Below, piece after piece: positions 7,470 to 17,120 of a DNA stretch of 64,000 nucleotides. Location of the stretch: the NCBI RefSeq assembly GCF_011761475.1, contig NZ_JAASRS010000001.1, forward strand, positions 1,240,001 through 1,304,000, in the 5' to 3' direction. Position numbers and translations under genes: made by a program. A model generated the notes under the pieces. It was given only the letters and a program-made list of their open reading frames with translations. It did no database searches and had not been told where the DNA came from. This DNA comes from Saccharococcus thermophilus (GTDB taxonomy: Bacteria; Bacillota; Bacilli; Bacillales; Anoxybacillaceae). Positions within the stretch are counted from its first letter, which is position 1; each line of letters begins with the position of its first letter.

Positions 7470-7677
7470 GCGATTAGAACGCCTTAATCTTTTCTAACAT
7501 AAAACTCCTTTAGCTGCTTTGTCGTTAATGCAAGAATGAACCGCTTGTCATTGATAATCCGTGGTACATTGCGAACAATTGCATGGTTTTTCCTTTTTAC
7601 GAGTTTTCACATACATATACGTCCGTTGGCTAAAAATAATATAGCGAGCCATTACTATGATGAAAAGAGGCACTGTT

Positions 7678-8130
7678 ATGCTTTCCAAAAAATTATTGCT
7701 CCTCCTTTTTGGCATATTTCTCGTTGTGGGAACAAACAATGCAGAATCAAAAGTTAACCAAGCGGCGGCAACTGCCGAGCAATTAGAGGATCTTTCCATA
7801 TACTTTTTAACTCCTTACATCACGAAATCTGTTTTAAACTATTATGGAAAGAAATCGGGAACCCAATGGTGGAAGGCGAAAATAATAAACGTGAAAAATT
7901 TAGAACAAGAGAGCAATTACCACTTTCTGATCACTGTTCAGGTTGAAACTTTTCAAGGGGCTCATAATCCTCCTTACGCCACGGACATAATGACATTTCA
8001 CATCAAAAATGATCGCATCACATTGATTCGTTATCAGCATTATAAAGAATATACATACGCACAGGATTGCTGGGCATGTTGGCCATTTTTCTATAGGTGG
8101 GAAAAGATGTTTTCGATTATGTTTGAGTGA
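7678..8130 (+). CDS. Secreted DUF3888-type protein
   Basis: A 150-residue protein with a clear Sec signal peptide (MLSKKLLLLLFGIFLVVGTNNAES). The mature part contains LEDLSIYFLTPYITKSVLNYYG and ITLIRYQHYKE, which resemble the DUF3888 family of exported Bacillus proteins of unknown role. The C-terminus has a CWAC pair. The ATG at 7678 is preferred over 7657 because AAAGAGG sits 7 bases before it. It is transcribed alone, diverging from csoR. The family assignment is from memory of the pattern and is tentative. Confidence 0.6.
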   Translation: MLSKKLLLLLFGIFLVVGTNNAESKVNQAAATAEQLEDLSIYFLTPYITKSVLNYYGKKSGTQWWKAKIINVKNLEQESNYHFLITVQVETFQGAHNPPYATDIMTFHIKNDRITLIRYQHYKEYTYAQDCWACWPFFYRWEKMFSIMFE

Positions 8131-8221
8131 TTTTTACTGCGTTCCGACCGCATTTTAGTGTCGATAAATGCAACATGGTCAAAATGTGGTCGTGTAGTCA
8201 AGCCAATGTCATCACCTTCAA

Positions 8222-8280
8222 ACAAAAAAAAGCGGGAGCAATCCCGCTTCAGCTTGCCGACAAATCCGACAAGCTGATCA
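8222..8280 (-). terminator. Hairpin pair between DUF3888 gene and phzF-like gene
   Basis: The 314-base gap 8131-8444 holds no supportable gene. It contains AGCGGGA/TCCCGCT (8228-8248), followed on the minus strand by a run of nine T, which makes a terminator for the PhzF-like gene about 200 bases upstream. A second hairpin (CAGCTTG/CAAGCTG, 8249-8276) lies next to it. Confidence 0.6.
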
Positions 8281-8444
8281 TTGATACATCAATGCACATA
8301 AAAAGCCTAACCACTTTGGAAACATATAAACTACTAAGGGGCGCTATCATGATCTCCAATTTGATGGTTATGCGTGAATCACGGCATCGCTCCTCTTTTA
8401 GAACACCTTATGTAACATAACGCTACCAATTTCGAGAAAATCCT

Positions 8445-9353
8445 TTAAATTATTGAGTGAATATCAAGATTTTCCTTTTGTAAAATGGCCGCATATCCTC
8501 CTACTCGTGTTTTAGTTATACTTCCTTCTTTAGAAATATAGGAAGCAGCTTGGATAATACTCGGTCTTCCCATCGCATATCCCTGTCCGATCAGGTATTC
8601 ATACCATCCCTCTTTTGGTTCTTGGAGTTTGGAATAATGGGTTAGATATGCGCCAAGTGCACAAGCCGCTACACCTGTAGCCGGATCTTCGTTATAACCT
8701 GCTCTTTTAGGAAATTGACGGGCCTCAACATCGTATTTCGAAGATTGTGTTGTCAACGTAAAAGGATAAAAGCCGGTTGTCTGGTATCTATCACAAAGTT
8801 CCCAAAGCAACTCAAAGTCAGGATCTAAGTTATGAAGTATTTCGTAATTACGCAGAGGAATCATCAATTTGGGACGTGAAGTGGAAACGGATTGAATGGG
8901 CCCCACAGTGAAATCTAGTTCTTCTTCCCTTATTTTTAATGCCTGTGCAACTTCTGAAGGATTGGGATTTTCATTGCTGAAAGACGGAGGGAATTGTTCT
9001 ACGATCACATTTAATCTTCCGTCTTTTTCTTGGGCAATTACCGCTATTTCCCCCAGCGCGGTCTCCATTGTTCCATTGAACTGTTTTATTCCATGAGACT
9101 GGCACCAGTAACTTACCGCGCCTACAGTAGCATGAACGCACATTTCCATTTCGTGCTTTGGAACAAAGTATCTTAGTCTGAAAAGGGCATTTCGATTTTC
9201 AGACTGTAGTATAAAGGCTGTTTCGACCCCGTAATAAGCAGCAATGCTTTGCATTTGCTTATCAGTTAAAGAGTCACTGTTTAATACTAAGGGACATGGA
9301 TTTCCCCCGTCAGAAGAAATGCCAAATACTTTTGTTTGTACTACTGATAACAT
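8445..9353 (-). CDS. PhzF family isomerase/epimerase
   Basis: A 302-residue enzyme of the PhzF/YddE fold (two diaminopimelate-epimerase-like halves). The catalytic Glu is in VETAFIL near residue 43, with further family motifs MEMCVHATVGA and EDPATGVAACALGAYL. In phenazine producers PhzF isomerises DHHA, but no phenazine genes are nearby, so here it is a stand-alone enzyme of unknown substrate. The start at 9353 is set by AAAAGAGGTG seven bases upstream; an in-frame GTG at 9362 overlaps that site and is rejected. Monocistronic as far as can be seen. Confidence 0.85.
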   Translation of the reverse strand: MLSVVQTKVFGISSDGGNPCPLVLNSDSLTDKQMQSIAAYYGVETAFILQSENRNALFRLRYFVPKHEMEMCVHATVGAVSYWCQSHGIKQFNGTMETALGEIAVIAQEKDGRLNVIVEQFPPSFSNENPNPSEVAQALKIREEELDFTVGPIQSVSTSRPKLMIPLRNYEILHNLDPDFELLWELCDRYQTTGFYPFTLTTQSSKYDVEARQFPKRAGYNEDPATGVAACALGAYLTHYSKLQEPKEGWYEYLIGQGYAMGRPSIIQAASYISKEGSITKTRVGGYAAILQKENLDIHSII

Positions 9354-9473
9354 TGATAACACCTCTTTTACTAAATCGAAATAATGACAGTTAAGTTTTT
9401 ACGGAATTGAAAGAAGATAAATACCTATGTTTCTGTTATTTTTTGATCGTATATCCCAAAACTCATTATTAAA

Positions 9474-9890
9474 TTATTCACGTAAAGTCGGTAATTCTTT
9501 TTCTTTTATAGAAGAATATACCACAAAGAGAAATAGTCCAGTTAATATAAAACCCATTCCTCCAATCAAACCAAGCATTCTATTATTGACTGCTTCTAAA
9601 AGGATGCCAGCCCCGAGCATAAATATTCCAATTAATGTATTTGAAATGGTGGCTAATAGACCAAATACTAAGCCTTGAAGGTCACTAGGCGTCTCCTTCA
9701 TAACAATTGAATCGAAGCATGTATTGCAAATGCCTGATACAAAAGAGATTGAAATATATATAATAAAAGCGATGAATGCGAAGTGAACCCGACTTAAGAT
9801 AATAAGAAACAAACCTTCTAATATTAGAGTCGTCAAGCCAATTAATAAAAGATGCTGGTGAATACGTTGAGCTATTATACAACTTAGCAA
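9474..9890 (-). pseudogene. MFS transporter, C-terminal fragment
   Basis: About 138 residues with four to five hydrophobic helices, including FVSGICNTCFDSIVMKETPSDLQGLVFGLLATISNT, the pattern found in the second half of macrolide-efflux-like MFS proteins (TM8-12). The N-terminal half is missing: the frame runs into the right end of the TnpB element at 9891. The matching N-terminal half is not on the other side of that element, so a deletion or rearrangement removed it. Confidence 0.7.
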
Positions 9891-10130
9891 TGAACCTCTC
9901 CCACCTTCATTCCATGAAGAGGTGGGAGTTTCTTACCACCTCCACCAAAGAAGCTTCTGCGCAGAAGAAGGCGGTCTCCTTCCACTCGATAAATACATCG
10001 GAAGTCTTCTTGATGGATCCAGTAAGCAACATCGGCATCACACCGATGGGGCGATCCAACCCTTCTACTACTTCTTGCTTACGCAATCCGTAGATACGTC
10101 AGCTTCGTTTGTACGTTCCAGTGTTTGAAG
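9891..10130 (-). ncRNA. Putative omega RNA (reRNA) of TnpB copy 1
   Basis: By family knowledge the guide scaffold spans the tnpB 3' end and right end of the element, with guide sequence taken from the flank. This region carries the hairpin at 9896-9931 and an A/C-rich stretch well conserved with copy 2. Exact ends cannot be read from sequence. Confidence 0.4.
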
Positions 10131-11251
10131 GTGCCGTGCAGTGCTTTGCTTAAGATATTTCTCGCGCCGTGAACATCACGGTGCTCCTCGTACCCACACC
10201 GACACACAAACAGGCGGGAAGACACTTTTTTTCTCTTTTGGCAGACAGGACATGTCTGGCTTGTATACGACTCTACGATTTCATGCAATCGAATGCCATG
10301 TTGAGACAGCTTATAAGCGAGATACTTCTTCACTTTCCCGAATGACCAATTCGAGAGTCTCTGTGCTTGTTTACGGCTTACCCGTTTTTTTCTCGTGTTC
10401 CGCTGCACCCCTTCGACGTTTCCGATATACACATTGGAAACGGATTGCTTCAAACACCAGTCAACAAATGGTTTGGTCGTTTTATGGAGCGCATCCCGCA
10501 GCTGTCTTTCGGATTTCGACAACACGTATTGTTTCGCCCGCTCATACTTTTTCCATTGACGCGATCCTTTTTGACATTTCGATTGACGCCGCTGGATCTC
10601 TGCCAGTTTTTTATTCCGAAGCCGGTGAAGGGAGCGTATTTTTCTTCCCGTGATGAGGAGGGCTTGCCCGTTTTCACAAAACGCGCCGATGGTGTGTACT
10701 TCCCCAAGATCGACTCCAACTGCCTTCCCCGGTTTATACGCTTTTTCCTTTTGTCCATCTTCATATGTCACGGCCAAATAAAGACCTTGATCCCAGCAGC
10801 ATTCGATTTCTTTGATCGTTCCTTTTGGCAAACGCGACGCATACACGACGATCGGCTTTTCCCGTTTTCCATGATGAATACCCATGGAGAGTTCAATTTT
10901 TCCGTTTTCATACACTTTGAAACCGTCTTTCGCCCATTTCGTTGGGAAGTACTTCTTTTTCTTGTAGGGATAACGGGCAGGATGTCCTTGCTGGATGGCG
11001 TGGTGAGCAGATTGTCTTGCGAAGAGATATTTGTGACAGACGGCTTGAATGGATTGACTGTGAAGATGGAACTTTCTTTTCGTTTGTTTTTGCAGCCCGC
11101 TTTTGGTGATCCAGCACCCATGCTGGAGGAAGTTTTCTTTGGCCAAACGGAGGCATTCATTCCAAACAAGGGCGGATTCCCGATTGCAGGCATACAATCG
11201 GTCCAAATCTGTTTTGGATGCCCGGAAGAACACTTTTTGGCCACGAAGCAT
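10079..11251 (-). CDS. tnpB: TnpB-type RNA-guided endonuclease (IS605 OrfB), copy 1
   Basis: A 390-residue TnpB. The RuvC residues are in VGVDLGEVHT (Asp), YIGNVEGVQ (Glu) and HRDVHGARN (Asp), and the zinc ribbon is CPVCQ...CRCG. The N-terminal helix-turn-helix and the LHSQSIQAVCHKY region are typical. The start MLRGQKV (11251) matches copy 2 and follows GAAAGAAGGGA. TnpB proteins use a guide RNA made from the element right end to cut target DNA beside a short TAM. The frame is intact although the element's left end is damaged. Confidence 0.9.
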   Translation of the reverse strand: MLRGQKVFFRASKTDLDRLYACNRESALVWNECLRLAKENFLQHGCWITKSGLQKQTKRKFHLHSQSIQAVCHKYLFARQSAHHAIQQGHPARYPYKKKKYFPTKWAKDGFKVYENGKIELSMGIHHGKREKPIVVYASRLPKGTIKEIECCWDQGLYLAVTYEDGQKEKAYKPGKAVGVDLGEVHTIGAFCENGQALLITGRKIRSLHRLRNKKLAEIQRRQSKCQKGSRQWKKYERAKQYVLSKSERQLRDALHKTTKPFVDWCLKQSVSNVYIGNVEGVQRNTRKKRVSRKQAQRLSNWSFGKVKKYLAYKLSQHGIRLHEIVESYTSQTCPVCQKRKKVSSRLFVCRCGYEEHRDVHGARNILSKALHGTFKHWNVQTKLTYLRIA

Positions 11252-11349
11252 GAGCATTCCCTTCTTTCCTTGCCTGATTGGATGGCTCTATTATAGCACG
11301 TATGTTCGTTTTTGGGAATCAAAAATTCCCGATTTATCTCCCTCCTTCA

Positions 11350-11442
11350 TTCAAAACTATTGAAGGTATTTTAGATTCTTTATCAAAAAAAGGTTATCAA
11401 TTTGTAACGGTTAACGAACTGCAGAAGTTACAGAATAAATAA
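11350..11442 (+). pseudogene. Polysaccharide deacetylase, C-terminal fragment
   Basis: About 30 codons, FKTIEGILDSLSKKGYQFVTVNEL and a short tail, match the last helix and strand of NodB-fold polysaccharide deacetylases (the usual ...L.KKGY.FVTV.EL end). No start codon and no catalytic region remain; the upstream part is replaced by the TnpB element. A terminator follows at 11478. Confidence 0.6.
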
Positions 11443-11477
11443 TGAATAAGAATTTGTTTTAAAAGCTTAATTAAAAC

Positions 11478-11523
11478 AAAAATGGAGTGACAAAACTGTT
11501 ACCAGTTTGCACTCCATTTTTTT
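11478..11523 (+). terminator. Terminator after the deacetylase remnant
   Basis: AAAAATGGAGTG / CACTCCATTTTTT with an inner repeat CAAAACTG/CAGTTTG and T7. The 278-base gap 11443-11720 shows nothing else that can be supported. Confidence 0.75.
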
Positions 11524-11720
11524 AAAAAGTTCTCTCCGACGTGAAAGTGATCCGTCTAGGACATTCCTCTGCCCCGTTGACGTTAGACGTGTATTCTCAC
11601 AAGACAAAAAGTGCCTCACTTTGAAAGAAACAGTCGAGAAAAAGAATTTTTCTCTTTACGTTCTTTTAAGATGGGACAAATGAGTCAAACATCAACAAGA
11701 GGCTTTAATGTAGCCTTTTA

Positions 11721-12203
11721 TTACTTAATGACTCTCTTAGCACCTATATATCGGCCTTTCCAATATTTATCACTCATTTTAACAACTTTTACACCTTTTG
11801 ATGTTGCACCAATAAACGTACCATTTCCATTATAAATTCCCACAAAGGATACTTTTCCTTTTTCTCCTGTTGCATAAAACACTAAATCGCCTTTTTGCAA
11901 CGCATTTTGTTTAACAACTTTGCCGATTTTATACTGTGCGGCACTCGTTCGCGGAATAGACATTTGAGTGGCTGCATTTTTATACACATACTGAGTAAAG
12001 CCACTCGCATCAAATCCTTCTGGTGTTGTACCCCCGTATTTATAAGGGCTTCCTACATAGCTCTCTGCTATTGCCGCAACTTCCTCCCCATAGTTAATCG
12101 TTGCTGATGCATTGGAAACTGTACCAAAGATAAATGCCGCTGCTAAAGATAAAATCAATAAAACTGTTAAGAACCATTTTGGAACCGATAAACTTATGCT
12201 CAT
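11721..12203 (-). CDS. Secreted NlpC/P60-fold protein lacking all catalytic residues
   Basis: A 160-residue exported protein with a signal peptide (about 1-35, ending ASA) and a single NlpC/P60 domain. The fold landmarks are clear: YVGSPYKYGGTTPEGFD, GDLVFYATGEKGKVS and VGIYNGNGTFIGAT. In active C40 peptidases these give FDCSGF, SHVGIY and FIHA. Here they read FDASGF (GCG codon), SFVGIY and FIGAT, so the Cys, the His and the third residue are all replaced. It should not hydrolyse peptidoglycan and may bind it or act as an inhibitor or decoy; that is inference. SD AGGGGGAG precedes the ATG. Monocistronic. Confidence 0.85.
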   Translation of the reverse strand: MSISLSVPKWFLTVLLILSLAAAFIFGTVSNASATINYGEEVAAIAESYVGSPYKYGGTTPEGFDASGFTQYVYKNAATQMSIPRTSAAQYKIGKVVKQNALQKGDLVFYATGEKGKVSFVGIYNGNGTFIGATSKGVKVVKMSDKYWKGRYIGAKRVIK

Positions 12204-12290
12204 TCCTACTCCCCCTTAGATTAGAAAATGAACCTCAATTCCAAATATATAGAGATTAATCATTTTGATTCCTAGGTAAAAAAATTTTTT

Positions 12291-12530
12291 AGAGGTGTTA
12301 ATCTTTATTCTTTATATAATCAGAAGACTATTCACGATCAATTAAAAGAGGAACTTTTTGAATGGACACGCCAATACGGCAAAATTCTAGAGGAATCTGA
12401 TTATGGTGCACATATCAAAGAAGAAACTCGCAATGCCATAGAAAACAATGATAAAGGTTTCATCTTATTTAAAGTTAAACAGGAACTTGGTGAAAACTAT
12501 AACATAGAGTACATACCCACTACTCTCTAA
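12291..12530 (+). pseudogene. Unrecognised ORF remnant without start codon
   Basis: Eighty codons open in one frame up to a TAA (RGVNLYSLYNQKTIHDQL ... KVKQELGENYNIEYIPTTL). Composition is protein-like and amphipathic, but no ATG/GTG/TTG with an SD precedes it and an in-frame stop lies just upstream, so it looks like the 3' end of a lost gene. A terminator follows. A further coding-like scrap lies at about 12607-12690. No function proposed. Confidence 0.35.
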
Positions 12531-12537
12531 AGGGACG

Positions 12538-12567
12538 AAATGACAGAATATTTTCTGTCATTTTTCA
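12538..12567 (+). terminator. Terminator after the ORF remnant
   Basis: AAATGACAGA / TCTGTCATTT with a short loop and T5 tail. Confidence 0.7.
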
Positions 12568-12701
12568 TTTAAACTCCAACAATCTTATGTAGTATTATGA
12601 TTTGATAAAGACTATCCTGAAAATAAGCAGGAAACAAAATATGAACCCAGTAGCATGGACAATACAGCTACTTTAATGGATTGCCTTTTAAAAAATTTAA
12701 A

Positions 12702-12728
12702 ATCTCGCTTCAAAACGAAGCGAGACTA
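12702..12728 (-). terminator. Terminator of the nitroreductase gene
   Basis: AATCTCGCTTC / GAAGCGAGACT around a 5-base loop; on the minus strand it follows the stop at once and leads into a T-rich stretch. Confidence 0.7.
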
Positions 12729-13475
12729 ACGCAAATTAAACCCTTTTCCTTCTACGAATTCTTTCATATACATGCGCACAGGGTTGCTGAGCATGTTGGC
12801 CATTTGCCCGGTCCATGTGTCGCGGCGTTTGCCGTTTGTCCGCTTTTCGTAATACGCGGAAACGATATCGTTATATTGTTTCAGCTGCGCTTCGAATTTG
12901 GCGCGGTCTTGTTCATACGTTTCTTCATGGTATACGTGTTCAAACGGCAGGCGCGGTTTTTTGTCAGGTTGCTGCGCCGGGTAGCCGACGGCAAGCCCGA
13001 AGAGCGGAATGACCCGCTTCGGCACCTTCAACAGCTTACATACTTCCGGCAAGTTGTTGCGCAGCCCTCCGATATAGCAAATGCCAAGCCCCATCGATTC
13101 TGCGGCGATGGCTGCGTTTTGCGCCGCCAGTGCTGTATCAATAAGCGCAACCATAAATTTTTCCGTGCTCTCAAGCGATGGCAGCACCTCTTTCTGCTCC
13201 ATTTCACCAATCACTTCATGACGGTGAAGATCGGCGCAAAATACGAAGAAATGGCCATTGTTCTCAACATAAGACTGATTTCCCGCTAATTCCGCCAGTT
13301 TTCGTTTCGTCTCTTTATCTTTAACGCCGATGATAGAATACGCTTGAATAAAACTCGATGTCGCCGCGGCTTGCGCACACTCGACGATCGTTCGAATTTG
13401 CTCGTCCGTCAATGGGCGGTCTTCAAATTGACGAATCGAACGGTGCTGCAAAATCGTTTCAATGACTGGATTCAT
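12726..13475 (-). CDS. nfrA1: NfsA/NfrA1-type FMN-dependent NADPH oxidoreductase (nitroreductase)
   Basis: A 249-residue flavoprotein of the group A nitroreductases. Motifs match B. subtilis NfrA1 closely: HRSIRQF near the N-terminus (phosphate binding of FMN), AQAAATSSFIQAYSIIGV, GNQSYVENNGHFFVFCADL, AAESMGLGICYIGGLRNN and FGLAVGYP. The family reduces nitroaromatics, quinones and, for NfrA1, other two-electron acceptors during stress. SD GGAGGC precedes the ATG at 13475. It is followed by its own terminator. Confidence 0.92.
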   Translation of the reverse strand: MNPVIETILQHRSIRQFEDRPLTDEQIRTIVECAQAAATSSFIQAYSIIGVKDKETKRKLAELAGNQSYVENNGHFFVFCADLHRHEVIGEMEQKEVLPSLESTEKFMVALIDTALAAQNAAIAAESMGLGICYIGGLRNNLPEVCKLLKVPKRVIPLFGLAVGYPAQQPDKKPRLPFEHVYHEETYEQDRAKFEAQLKQYNDIVSAYYEKRTNGKRRDTWTGQMANMLSNPVRMYMKEFVEGKGFNLR

Positions 13476-13564
13476 GGTGAATGCCTCCTATACAATGATA
13501 GCTTTGCTTTTTATGATACCAAAAAAAGAAAGAGCCAAAAAATGATTGGCTCATTCCAAAGCGT

Positions 13565-13918
13565 TTATTGATCCTCACCATCATCAACAATATGTCCTTC
13601 GCCATTTTCCACGTAGTGCTTGAGCATCGCCATTTTGTTATCCCAAAATCGTTCGTAAAAGGACAGCCATTCCTTTAATTCCAACAATGGAGTTGGTTCT
13701 AGACGATATCGCGTTTCCCGCCCAACCTTTCTCTCCTTCACAAGTCCGGCATCCGCCAAAATCCGCAAATGCTTGGACACGGCCGTCCGGCTGATCGGAA
13801 AATGGCCGCTGATGACGGTAACGGGCATTTCCTTATCGGCCAACAATCGCAACAGCTTACGCCGGGTAGGATCAGCGATGGCCTGAAAGACGTCATGCTT
13901 GTGTGATAAAGCAGCCAT
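13565..13918 (-). CDS. ArsR/SmtB-family repressor paired with an SRPBCC protein
   Basis: A 117-residue winged-helix regulator: VFQAIADPTRRKLLRLL, then the recognition helix ISRTAVSKHLRILADAGLV and wing KERKVGRETRYRL. The long C-terminal helix LKEWLSFYERFWDNKMAMLKHYV is typical of the ArsR type that accompanies AHSA1 proteins. No metal-binding Cys pair is seen. It starts 1 base after the SRPBCC stop (TAATATG), so the two are translated together. Likely autoregulates the pair through the operators at 14381-14425. Confidence 0.88.
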   Translation of the reverse strand: MAALSHKHDVFQAIADPTRRKLLRLLADKEMPVTVISGHFPISRTAVSKHLRILADAGLVKERKVGRETRYRLEPTPLLELKEWLSFYERFWDNKMAMLKHYVENGEGHIVDDGEDQ

Positions 13919-13919
13919 A

Positions 13920-14354
13920 TTACGCCTCGACATACGCGCCTAAGGATTTGCAAAGCTTGGCCCATCCCTGATCCATCCGATCGCGTACGATAGTATGAGA
14001 CTCGCCGAATTCCGTCACTTTATCCGCATCCCAGCCGGAATGAATAAGCGTAAACTCTGTTTGCTGCTCATTCAGCTCTTTTAGCTCAAAAGTAACGGTC
14101 CAATCTTTCCCCCAGCGAAAAGACAGGCGATGAGGCGGATCGACTTCAATTACTTTACACGGAGACATTCCAAAAGGTCCGGCATTTAAATGAAACTCAT
14201 GGCCGACAACCGGCTGAAGATCGTTAGGCATAAACCAAGCCGCAAGCCCCTCTGAAGTAGAAACCGCTTCCCAAACTTTTTGAATCGGCGCTTGAAAAAC
14301 CATCGTGTGACGAATATGTGGCAACATGCTGTTCGTTGTATTTTTTGCTGTCAT
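13920..14354 (-). CDS. SRPBCC/AHSA1 domain protein
   Basis: A 144-residue START-like ligand-binding protein: VFQAPIQKVWEAVSTSEGLAAWFMPND, FRWGKDWTVTFELKE and GWAKLCKSLGAYVEA are classic AHSA1 landmarks. The family binds small hydrophobic molecules; ligand unknown. First gene of a two-gene operon with an ArsR repressor. The ATG at 14354 follows ACGGAGGTTATAAC. The order effector-repressor is the reverse of the more usual repressor-effector layout. Confidence 0.85.
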   Translation of the reverse strand: MTAKNTTNSMLPHIRHTMVFQAPIQKVWEAVSTSEGLAAWFMPNDLQPVVGHEFHLNAGPFGMSPCKVIEVDPPHRLSFRWGKDWTVTFELKELNEQQTEFTLIHSGWDADKVTEFGESHTIVRDRMDQGWAKLCKSLGAYVEA

Positions 14355-14380
14355 TGTTATAACCTCCGTATTTTATTTAT

Positions 14381-14432
14381 GAAACTTTTTGGTTTCATTT
14401 TGATTATACGAAACCATTTGGTTTCATGTCAA
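14381..14432 (-). promoter_or_regulatory. SRPBCC-ArsR promoter with two palindromic operators
   Basis: On the minus strand: consensus -35 TTGACA (14432-14427), 18-base spacer, -10 TATAAT (14408-14403). A perfect 16-bp palindrome of GAAACC/GGTTTC arms (14410-14425) fills the spacer, and a second copy with one arm mismatch (14381-14396) lies just past the -10; their centres are 29 bp apart. The pattern predicts strong autorepression by the ArsR protein. Confidence 0.75.
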
Positions 14433-14505
14433 CCCAGAATGGTGAGCGTACTACTTATCCGCATTTAACCGTTTCCTCAACGTCCCGTAACAACAAATGG
14501 GAAAT

Positions 14506-14543
14506 AAAAAAGAGGCGGACAACGGAAACGGTTGCCGCCTCTC
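14506..14543 (-). terminator. Terminator of sdpI
   Basis: AGAGGCGG...CCGCCTCT arms with an inner repeat (CAACGG/CCGTTG type) and T6 on the minus strand. Confidence 0.75.
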
Positions 14544-14597
14544 CAAAAACGCCGAAAAGACCGCTTGTCGATCACGATGTGCCGCTTTTCTTATTCA

Positions 14598-15236
14598 TTA
14601 TTTGTCTGCCACCTTTTTATAAACGGCATAAGAATATACCGTCGGTACAAGTGCGATACAGGCGATCGACGCAATGAGAAGCACAGCGCGAATGGAGGAT
14701 GGGGCAAAGGCAGATACGATCATGATGATTCCGCCAATGAAAAAGACTTTGCCGCCAAACCGGTGCGTGCGCGCCCACACCGTTTCATTCGCCAGCGTCC
14801 ACGGCGTGCGGATGCCCATGAAATAATTCGCTTTCACTTTTGGCATATAATTTCCGAGAACAACAAAAAGGAGACCTAATCCTATATTGGCAATCCAATC
14901 CATGTTGACATGGTAGCCAAGGCCGTTAAAGATGATAGAAATATGCATGACGGTTAAAAACGTTAGAATAGTATACATGAAAACGCGGTACGCTCCCGCG
15001 AACTTTTTGTAATTCTCTTTACGCGGATCGACTTTCGCCACCCCAAGCAGCGTCCCATAAATCCCTGTCAACAAAATCGGTCCGAATAAAACGGCAAAAA
15101 GCTTTGATGAATAGCCGTCCACTTCCCCCGAAAAGTTCCAATGCGTTGGAACTTGGTCAGGCAATTGCGGATACGCCCATACCGAGATTCCAACACTGAT
15201 GGTGATCAGCAAGAAAAAATACCAATGCTTTTTCAT
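14598..15236 (-). CDS. sdpI: SdpI-type immunity/signal-transduction membrane protein
   Basis: A 212-residue protein with an N-terminal DUF1648 part (YPQLPDQVPTHWNFSGEVDGYSSK) and a C-terminal SdpI domain (NYMPKVKANYFMGIRTPWTLANETVW...THRFGG), six predicted membrane helices. In B. subtilis SdpI protects against the SdpC toxin and recruits the repressor SdpR to the membrane. No sdpABC toxin genes occur in the window. The ATG at 15236 overlaps the sdpR stop as ATGA. Because sdpR is interrupted, expression of sdpI may now depend on other promoters. Confidence 0.88.
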   Translation of the reverse strand: MKKHWYFFLLITISVGISVWAYPQLPDQVPTHWNFSGEVDGYSSKLFAVLFGPILLTGIYGTLLGVAKVDPRKENYKKFAGAYRVFMYTILTFLTVMHISIIFNGLGYHVNMDWIANIGLGLLFVVLGNYMPKVKANYFMGIRTPWTLANETVWARTHRFGGKVFFIGGIIMIVSAFAPSSIRAVLLIASIACIALVPTVYSYAVYKKVADK

Positions 15237-15500
15237 TCCTTGTTCCTCTCCCCTTCTTGTAATGATAAAAGCCAAACTAATACATCTTGCAACACCGTTG
15301 TGTTGATGGAGTAATAGATGTACTGCCCTTCTTTTTCAGCGTGCACTAAATCCGCCTGCTTTAACATTTTTCCCGAGAAGTCTCTCTTCCTCTAAACGGA
15401 GTGAAGGAGGGAGATGAATCGGGAAGTTTTTGATTCCCAAAAAACGAACATATGTGCTATAATCAAACTATCCTATCATGTAAGGAAAGAAGGGATTCTC

Positions 15501-16676
15501 ATGCTTCGTGGCCAAAAAGTGTTCTTCCGGGCATCGAAAGCGGATTTAGACCGATTGTATGCCTGCAATCGAGAATCCGCCCGTGTTTGGAATGAATGTC
15601 TTCGATTGGCGAAGGAACATTTTCTCCAATACGGTCGTTGGATTACCAAAAGTGAGTTGCAAAAACAAACAAAAAGGAAGTTTCATCTTCACAGCCAATC
15701 GATTCAAGCAGTCTGCCACAAATACCTCTTCGCAAGACAATCTGCCCACCACGCGATCCAACAAGGACATCCTGCCCGCTACCCCTACAAGAAAAAGAAG
15801 TACTTCCCTACAAAATGGGCGAAAGACGGTTTTAAGGTTTATGAGAACGGAAAAATCGAACTGTCGATGGGCATTCATCACGGAAAACGGGAAAAGCCAA
15901 TTGTCGTGTATGCGTCGCATCTGCCAAAAGGAACGATCAAAGAAATCGAATGCTGCTGGGATCAAGGTCTTTATTTGGCTGTGACGTATGAAGATGGACA
16001 AAAGGCAACATCGTACAAACCGAACTTCTCCGTCGGAGTCGATCTTGGAGAAGTACACACCATCGGCGCGTTTTGCGAAAACGGACAAGCCCTCCTTATC
16101 ACGGGAAGAAAAATACGCTCCCTTCACCGGCTGCGGAATAAAAAACTGGCGGAGATCCAGCAGCGCCAATCGAAATGCCAAAAAGGATCACGCCGTTGGA
16201 AAAAGTATGAGCGGGCGAAACAATACGTGTTATCCAAATCCGAAAGACAACTACGGGATGCACTCCATAAAACGACCAAACAGTTTGTTGACTGGTGTTT
16301 GAAGCAGTCCGCCTCCGATGTGTATATCGGAAACGTCGAAGGGGTGCAACGAAACACGAGAAAGAAAAAACGTACGAGCCGTAAACAAGCACAAAAACTC
16401 TCGAATTGGTCATTCGGGAAAGTGAAGCAGTATCTCACCTATAAACTGGCTCAACATGGCATTCGCTTGCACGAAATCGAGGAGTCATATACGAGCCAGA
16501 CATGTCCTGTCTGCCAAAAGAGAAAAAAAGTGTCCTCCCGCCTGTTTGTGTGCCGGTGTGGGTATGAGGAACATCGTGACGTTCACGGCGCGAGAAATAT
16601 CTTAAGCAAAGCGCTGCACGGCACCTTCAAACACTGGAACGTACAAACGAAGCTGACGTATCTACGGATTGCGTAA
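15501..16676 (+). CDS. tnpB: TnpB-type RNA-guided endonuclease (IS605 OrfB), copy 2
   Basis: A 391-residue TnpB, over 90% identical by eye to copy 1. RuvC residues lie in VGVDLGEVHT, YIGNVEGVQ and HRDVHGARN; the zinc ribbon is CPVCQ/CRCG. The start MLRGQKV follows GAAAGAAGGGATTCTC; a longer upstream frame reads through the element's left-end structure and is rejected. The guide would be drawn from the sdpR sequence beyond 16864, so the enzyme would be directed at sdpR alleles that lack the element, which favours retention of the insertion (known logic for TnpB). Confidence 0.92.
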   Translation: MLRGQKVFFRASKADLDRLYACNRESARVWNECLRLAKEHFLQYGRWITKSELQKQTKRKFHLHSQSIQAVCHKYLFARQSAHHAIQQGHPARYPYKKKKYFPTKWAKDGFKVYENGKIELSMGIHHGKREKPIVVYASHLPKGTIKEIECCWDQGLYLAVTYEDGQKATSYKPNFSVGVDLGEVHTIGAFCENGQALLITGRKIRSLHRLRNKKLAEIQQRQSKCQKGSRRWKKYERAKQYVLSKSERQLRDALHKTTKQFVDWCLKQSASDVYIGNVEGVQRNTRKKKRTSRKQAQKLSNWSFGKVKQYLTYKLAQHGIRLHEIEESYTSQTCPVCQKRKKVSSRLFVCRCGYEEHRDVHGARNILSKALHGTFKHWNVQTKLTYLRIA

Positions 16677-16864
16677 GCAAGAAGTAGTAGAAGGGTTGGA
16701 CCGCCCCATCGGTGTGATGCCGATGTTGCTTACTGGACCCATCAAGAAGACTTCCGATGCATTCATCGAGTGGAAGGAGACCACCTTCTTCCGTGCAGAA
16801 GCTTCTTCGATGGAGATGGTAAGAAACTCCCACCTCTTCATGGAATGAAGGTGGGAGAGGTTCA
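16600..16864 (+). ncRNA. Putative omega RNA (reRNA) of TnpB copy 2
   Basis: Conserved 3' part of tnpB and right end of the element, ending in the hairpin at 16826-16857. By analogy with characterised TnpB systems the RNA would run through 16864 into sdpR sequence (TGATGATGGGAAATGC...) as guide. Boundaries are inferred. Confidence 0.45.
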
Positions 16865-17120
16865 TGATGATGGGAAATGCTTGGTTTGGAGATACGGAAA
16901 TGGTCAGCGATTTCCCCCGCCGTCAAATCTCTGTTTTTTAACAAATTTAAAATGTCTCTTCGTGTTGAATCGGCTAGCGCTTTATAAACAAAGTTCATTA
17001 TTCATATACGTGCAGATGATGTATAAAATTTTGTGTAAAGCATTTTACTAGATCAAAATAAAAAAGGTAGGGTATTCTCTGATTGAACCCAAACATTCCA
17101 GAGAAAGGAGAACCCTACCT

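Follow-up and report, generated by a model that had tools for sequence, protein, structure and literature searches.

Apparently secreted NlpC/P60 proteins without catalytic residues form a widespread group in Bacillales and may bind peptidoglycan stem peptides

The 64,000-nt stretch of Saccharococcus thermophilus DNA analyzed here (the window) encodes an apparently secreted NlpC/P60 protein in which all catalytic positions are replaced, which raises the question of whether such a protein is a decaying enzyme or has been kept for another function. The open reading frame at 11721-12203 on the minus strand starts with ATG, contains zero internal stops and encodes 160 amino acids, and the Pfam model PF00877 (NLPC_P60) matches residues 51-157 along the entire profile (positions 1-105 of 105; 100.6 bits, with a cut-off of 23), so that the intact frame, full length and preserved fold motifs claimed in the first-pass annotation are all borne out. 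This general NlpC/P60 family is the sole Pfam match of the protein; no LysM match was obtained in the domain scan, and none of the NCBIfam models matched at its own cut-off. Judging from a signal peptide recognized by eye, the protein is apparently exported. The gene, its parts and the catalytic positions are as follows.

11721-12203, minus strand: coding sequence of the apparently secreted, non-catalytic NlpC/P60 protein, 160 aa (open reading frame; PF00877, 100.6 bits)
12209-12217, minus strand: Shine-Dalgarno-like sequence AAGGGGGAG, just 5' of the open reading frame, read directly from the sequence
12102-12203, minus strand: putative signal peptide, residues 1-34, with an AxA end (by eye, and a helix at residues 9-26 in the model)
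11724-12101, minus strand: NlpC/P60 domain of the mature protein, residues 35-160 (Pfam match, model and fold match)
12006-12008, minus strand: Ala66 (GCG), position of the catalytic Cys; Ala in 69 of 73 dead domains, Cys in 100 of 100 active ones
11844-11846, minus strand: Phe120 (TTT), position of the catalytic His; Phe in 68 of 73 dead domains, His in 100 of 100 active ones
11808-11810, minus strand: Gly132 (GGT), third catalytic position; Gly in 48 and Ala in 22 of 73 dead domains

The replaced residues lie within the motifs FDASGF (residues 64-69), SFVGIY (119-124) and FIGA (130-133), and the original reading of these motifs as a Cys/His/His triad turned into Ala/Phe/Gly proved correct. 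The protein thus lacks the catalytic Cys, the His and the polar third residue of an active C40 peptidase. The same genome (3.15 Mb, three contigs) was found to carry three other NlpC/P60 genes, all of which retain the Cys and His, with His, Asn and His, respectively, as the third residue. Classification of 173 distinct related domains yielded 73 without both Cys and His, hereafter dead, and 100 with both, hereafter active; among these 173 domains, which were drawn by likeness to the query, there were no intermediates with Cys but without His or the reverse. The boundary between the two classes was sampled by a profile search (among the matches listed) and 40 more stretches, and the set leaves out hits that were gapped or lacked a residue at a catalytic position, as well as copies whose last 125 residues were identical. 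The dead triads are AFG (45), AFA (20), AYG (2), SFA (2), VVY (2), AIG (1) and AFS (1), and the third residue of the 100 active domains is His in about 62-63, Asn in 25, Ser in about 10-11, and Gln and Glu in one each. The loss of the triad in the window protein is not due to chance, since Cys and His are both missing from the equivalent positions of 72 further distinct homologues.

Some dead proteins have a different architecture. For instance, in genus g52, five open frames of 398-406 codons (L127-L129, L221 and L222) encode a dead NlpC/P60 domain with a Val/Val/Tyr triad, and L127, the one frame of this genus that was scanned, also contains a LysM domain. Variants with an added N-terminal region were encountered as well (L033 and L109); the Fictibacillus version has such an extra region, and its alignment-free model was useless (pLDDT 32.2).

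Phylogenetic analysis separated the two classes. In a tree of 125 rows that included the catalytic columns, a branch supported at 100/97 separated the 72 dead domains from the rest, and in a tree of 173 rows, obtained with a quick method after masking the three catalytic columns, all 73 again fell on one side of a branch (SH-aLRT 98). The underlying alignments span just 124 and 121 columns, and the trees are read without an inferred root; given that the active side also contains Clostridia and other outgroups, the dead side is probably the derived one.

Pairwise Nei-Gojobori estimates over the domain, in which the pairs are not independent, gave a median dN/dS of 0.097 for dead proteins (118 pairs; highest value, 0.480) and 0.106 for active ones (136 pairs; highest value, 0.885). 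The window's own pair, at 0.269, is the highest of 21 sequence-disjoint dead pairs with dS below 0.9, and dead pairs with a higher dS reach 0.464. At position 66, Ala is encoded by all four GCN codons (GCA 33, GCT 25, GCG 8 and GCC 3) and at position 120, Phe by both TTT (57) and TTC (11); synonymous variety is also present at the Gly132 position. The low dN/dS combined with the codon variety at Ala66 and Phe120 makes the replacement residues look selectively held. Neither hallmark of a decaying pseudogene, relaxed selection or a broken frame, was found, the frame being intact and the median dN/dS 0.097. The proposal that the protein is a maintained pseudoenzyme is therefore upheld by the dead triad common to 73 distinct domains on one side of a branch, a dN/dS far below 1 and a confidently predicted fold, and the alternative of a lone mutant among Cys/His/His relatives is excluded, given that all 31 matching genomes of genus g74 carry the dead form.

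A scan of genome contigs for relatives yielded 49 loci. Among 397 sampled genomes of the window's order, 46 contain a match at E<=1e-38, and the triads, read in all 46, revealed a dead copy in 44; in the other two (G248 and G311), the match is an active Cys-His-Asn protein alone. A weaker dead copy was later detected in G311, bringing the count to at least 45 of the 397. In a class-wide sample, 3 of 398 genomes match, all three within the window's own order. The gene is common in genus g74 (31 of 36 genomes), with the frame broken in one of the 31 (G796). In the window's family, a full-length close copy (89-100% identity) is present in 4 of 41 genomes (G000, G032, G033 and G038), and remnants occur elsewhere: a record of Parageobacillus caldoxylosilyticus (L052) has an internal deletion in the gene, with an identical stretch in G037; the 3' end alone remains in G034; and G032 harbors a second, broken copy besides the full-length one. 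The gene is thus dispensable, and lineages lose it. A dead gene of Peribacillus frigoritolerans (L032, 5001-5476, of which L248 is a part) is split by a frame change 5' of the catalytic position, which represents either a sequencing error or real decay.

The predicted structure of the window protein is confident (mean pLDDT 89.4) and fits the NlpC/P60 fold closely, with a Z score of 23.7 and an rmsd of 0.9 over 119 residues to the solved NlpC/P60 domain 7cfl_B, so that the structure-prediction check proposed with the first-pass annotation came out in its favor; with the full-length PF00877 match, this places the protein in the NlpC/P60 superfamily. Other solved structures follow at Z 21.4 (YkfC, 3h41), 21.1 (LytE, 8i2d), 20.5 (LytE-IseA complex, 8i2e_B) and 18.3 (RipD, 4jxb_B), although fold likeness alone demonstrates no function. 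In YkfC of Bacillus cereus, the residues of the S1 and S2 subsites are reported to contact L-Ala-gamma-D-Glu (PMC2954226). We mapped them by setting Cys238 at position 66, which places Tyr226 at 54, Trp228 at 56, Asp237 at 65 and Ser239 at 67; beyond a gap near position 79, Arg255 and Ser257 were assigned to 85 and 87 by the conserved PRTS motif. The mapped residues include the following.

12009-12011, minus strand: Asp65, equivalent of YkfC Asp237, S1 pocket; in 73 of 73 dead domains
12003-12005, minus strand: Ser67, equivalent of YkfC Ser239, S1 pocket; in 70 of 73, with Gly in 3
11949-11951, minus strand: Arg85, equivalent of YkfC Arg255, active-site hydrogen-bond network; in 70 of 73, with His in 3
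12042-12044, minus strand: Tyr54, equivalent of YkfC Tyr226; Tyr in 45, Phe in 27 and a gap in 1 of 73

Position 56 is Tyr or Trp in 66 of the 73 dead domains, and position 87 is Ser, Thr or Ala in 64, Val in 8 and Ile in 1. By this mapping, the product side of the cleft is largely kept. The earlier suggestion that the loss was restricted to the active site holds for the triad but not for the rest of the domain: an extra residue near position 79 is present, as aligned, in 55 of 73 dead and 0 of 100 active domains, Lys55 in 39 of 39 non-redundant dead rows and 16 of 64 active ones, and the loop at 113-117 is altered in the dead rows. Net charge was also considered as a mark of the dead class and rejected, since the values (12.5 vs 9.8; sd 3.2 and 7.4) overlap too much.

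A difference outside the coding sequence concerns the binding site of the response regulator WalR, for which the Bacillus subtilis consensus is reported as TGTWAH-N5-TGTWAH (PMC9210968). A box conforming to this consensus lies within 250 nt upstream of 53 of the 100 active genes and of a single dead gene among 72, leaving out one dead row with N in its upstream stretch (L030). The fair comparison is that of standalone proteins, since the 'upstream' stretch of a domain in a multidomain protein falls inside the gene, and here the box was found in 45 of 53 active and 1 of 67 dead genes (shuffle means, 0.44 and 0.24). At 85% redundancy, the box lies upstream of 29 of 64 active genes and of 1 among 39 dead ones; with one mismatch allowed, a score of 11-12 of 12 is reached by 9 of the 73 dead genes and by 49 of the 53 standalone active ones, a count made without a shuffle control. 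The active genes are not a random sample, in that the window's family contributes 29 of the 53 standalone ones, and outside this family the box precedes 17 of 24 standalone active genes. In the eight genomes of the data set that encode standalone proteins of both kinds, every genome has at least one active copy with the box, and the 12 dead copies all lack it. No match to the consensus lies within the 250 nt upstream of the window gene. One standalone active paralogue in the same genome (L001) has the box TGTAACTTTTCTGTAAT, and the other standalone active gene (L004) is without one. The WalR box is thus mostly missing from dead genes, unlike from their standalone active relatives, and this difference is new here.

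A different sequence element occupies the upstream region of the window gene.

12243-12273, minus strand: promoter-like element AGGAAT-N16-TATATATTT, 70 nt upstream of the start codon, with position and spacing common to several genera

In the nearest dead subclade, the form [AT]GGAAT-N16-CATATATTT or a variant occurs at -65 to -77, and such elements precede 28 of 73 dead genes at p<=0.01; in 9 of these 28 (Peribacillus-like), the first box is TGGTCT rather than GGAAT. Elements of the same type precede 0 of 100 active genes at p<=0.01 and 5 of 100 at p<=0.05, so that the element is nearly confined to the close dead subclade. This test is partly circular, the element having been defined on the same sequences, and the real evidence for it is the constant spacing and position across several genera. 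In its own genome, the one exact copy is that of the window gene, and there was no genome-wide excess over the reversed control (61+46 vs 43+75 with up to two mismatches). We know of no sporulation or ECF consensus sequence that the element fits; no sigma-70 promoter was found in 11380-12500, and a riboswitch was rejected as well, 8000-16000 of the window having given no Rfam match.

Analysis of the gene neighborhoods did not point to a pathway. Beyond close relatives, no conserved neighbor was found, with no non-self cluster present in more than 9 of 31 loci, and the dead gene therefore appears to be a single-gene unit. An operon or partner reading was rejected on the same material, the scanned neighbors being mutually unrelated (MurB, a SIS regulator, DUF202, DUF2157, a GDSL lipase, GGDEF, a nitroreductase and others). 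A mobile origin was likewise rejected: 91 phage records match, all at less than 60% identity, the viral contigs searched contained no relative, and of 20 matching plasmid records, 19 are below 60%. The sole close plasmid copy (72.7%), unannotated and with an A/F/G triad, resides on a 1.08-Mb plasmid of Priestia megaterium.

What might such a protein do? The reading that we prefer, at a probability of about 0.4, is that of a maintained, apparently secreted, non-catalytic binder of stem peptides, resembling RipD, that would be expressed from its own WalR-independent promoter and would shield the cell wall from D,L-endopeptidases. The ancestor would have been a D,L-endopeptidase of the order that lost its nucleophile, base and third residue, leaving no surviving intermediates, and that retained the fold and the S1/S2 pocket. 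The mature protein could then hold L-Ala-gamma-D-Glu of peptidoglycan stem peptides without cleaving it, and by occupying these sites, it may protect the wall or its cross-links from the cell's own endopeptidases of the LytE/CwlO type, with the timing of this protection presumably set by the separate promoter. Several points speak against this reading: Phe120 might fill the cleft, the pocket shows substitutions (Phe54 in 27 of 73, Val87 in 8, Ile87 in 1, Gly67 in 3 and His85 in 3), and the gene is dispensable and has no conserved neighbor indicating a pathway.

The precedent for a stem-peptide binder is RipD (Rv1566c) of Mycobacterium tuberculosis, which is reported to have Ala83-Ser132-Glu144 at the catalytic positions and to bind peptidoglycan without hydrolysis (PMC12067865, PMC6628586). 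As in the window protein, the NlpC/P60 fold is intact and the catalytic residues are replaced (model Z 18.3 to 4jxb_B), but the second and third positions are here Phe and Gly or Ala, and the window protein lacks the C-terminal pentapeptide-repeat extension, stopping at residue 160, three residues past the domain match. It also scores 58.6 bits against the RipD family model NF033743, below the cut-off of 215, and belongs to a different phylum, and the triad was probably lost here independently of RipD. Non-catalytic NlpC/P60 proteins as such are already known, RipD being the studied case that we found, and sequences without the Cys/His dyad are reported to make up about 1% of 2,599 NlpC/P60 sequences (PMC2954226). 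A search of the open-licence literature by title and start of abstract listed no description of the Bacillales dead clade.

Among active enzymes, the closest comparison is with LytE, CwlO and the standalone secreted D,L-endopeptidases of Bacillales, which share the domain and the pocket residues (LytE, phmmer E 1.1e-23) but from which the window protein differs in having neither the catalytic Cys and His nor a LysM match nor a WalR box. YkfC (3h41), whose reported S1/S2 residues for L-Ala-gamma-D-Glu map to conserved residues here, differs in being active, in having two SH3b domains and in using Asp256 for the free N-terminal L-Ala, where the window protein has Thr86 (features of YkfC as reported). 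IseA might be a functional analogue, being secreted and restraining D,L-endopeptidases (PMC12700454, PMC7299342); however, it is reported to have a fold of its own and to be WalR-repressed, whereas the window protein has the fold of the enzymes and no WalR box.

The main rival to the stem-peptide binder, which we consider unlikely, is a role in binding proteins: it may act as a decoy that titrates an IseA-type inhibitor of NlpC/P60 enzymes, or it may serve a hydrolase as scaffold or activator. The model closely matches the fold of LytE, for which a complex with IseA has been solved (8i2e_B, Z 20.5); IseA reportedly binds in the catalytic groove by means of a loop resembling the stem peptide (PMC12700454), so that a preserved groove could bind it, and degenerate M23 proteins (EnvC and NlpD) are reported to activate amidases (PMC9662197). 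The changes outside the triad, namely the extra residue near 79 and the loop at 113-117, could form an interface as well. Yet no conserved neighbor names a partner, and most of the D-Glu pocket residues, needless for a mere protein interface, are kept. A further possibility, in our view rather improbable, is that the secreted protein would buffer or carry the cleavage products of D,L-endopeptidases, which end in L-Ala-gamma-D-Glu, and so tune WalRK feedback or muropeptide uptake. WalK of B. subtilis has been reported to sense these cleavage products (PMC7299342), the retained S1/S2 pocket forms the product side of the cleft, and the dead genes mostly lack the WalR box, as expected of a component outside the loop. 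In a broader form that we would likewise not bet on, the whole Bacillales clade of secreted dead endopeptidases would capture or buffer the cleavage products of stem peptides in the manner of a receptor, and would have left the WalR regulon so as to set, from outside the loop, the strength with which WalRK senses its own D,L-endopeptidases. Persistence of catalysis through a different nucleophile is very improbable: it could draw on the completeness of the predicted fold and on two members in which Ser replaces the Cys, but this position is Ala in 69 and Val in 2 of 73, the His is missing from all 73, and 70 have Gly or Ala as their third residue. A lone mutant or decaying pseudogene can be practically dismissed: the remnants found elsewhere in the family show that lineages do lose the gene, but 72 other distinct dead homologues, the median dN/dS and the synonymous variety at Ala66, Phe120 and Gly132 stand against this reading.

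Whichever function applies, this widespread and strongly selected dead group of Bacillales offers a tractable test of function beside active paralogues in the same cell, many of which carry the WalR box. Annotated relatives are often labeled C40 family peptidase, and thus dead copies may be misnamed enzymes.

Several additional features were observed around the dead genes. In Domibacillus-like loci, an active NlpC/P60 protein is encoded about 2.6-5.2 kb from the dead gene, a proximity that we take as local synteny. In Domibacillus itself (L015, L023 and L031), the active gene has a Cys-His-Asn triad and lies 2.6-4.0 kb downstream of the dead one; the one active gene scanned (L015, 8019-9032) encodes S-layer homology domains. 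In the window, a DUF3888 protein of unknown function (157 aa) is encoded at 7657-8130 on the plus strand. Two similar IS605-type TnpB elements in inverted orientation (9890-11352 and 15399-16865), with OrfB_IS605 and Cas12f1-like TNB domains and arms that are 81-93% complementary, bracket a 4-kb segment that contains the dead gene. Next to the first of these, a 138-aa open reading frame (9474-9890, minus strand) matches the end of the MFS_1 profile only (257-344 of 347; 22.6 bits, below the cut-off of 33.4) and looks like a truncated transporter.
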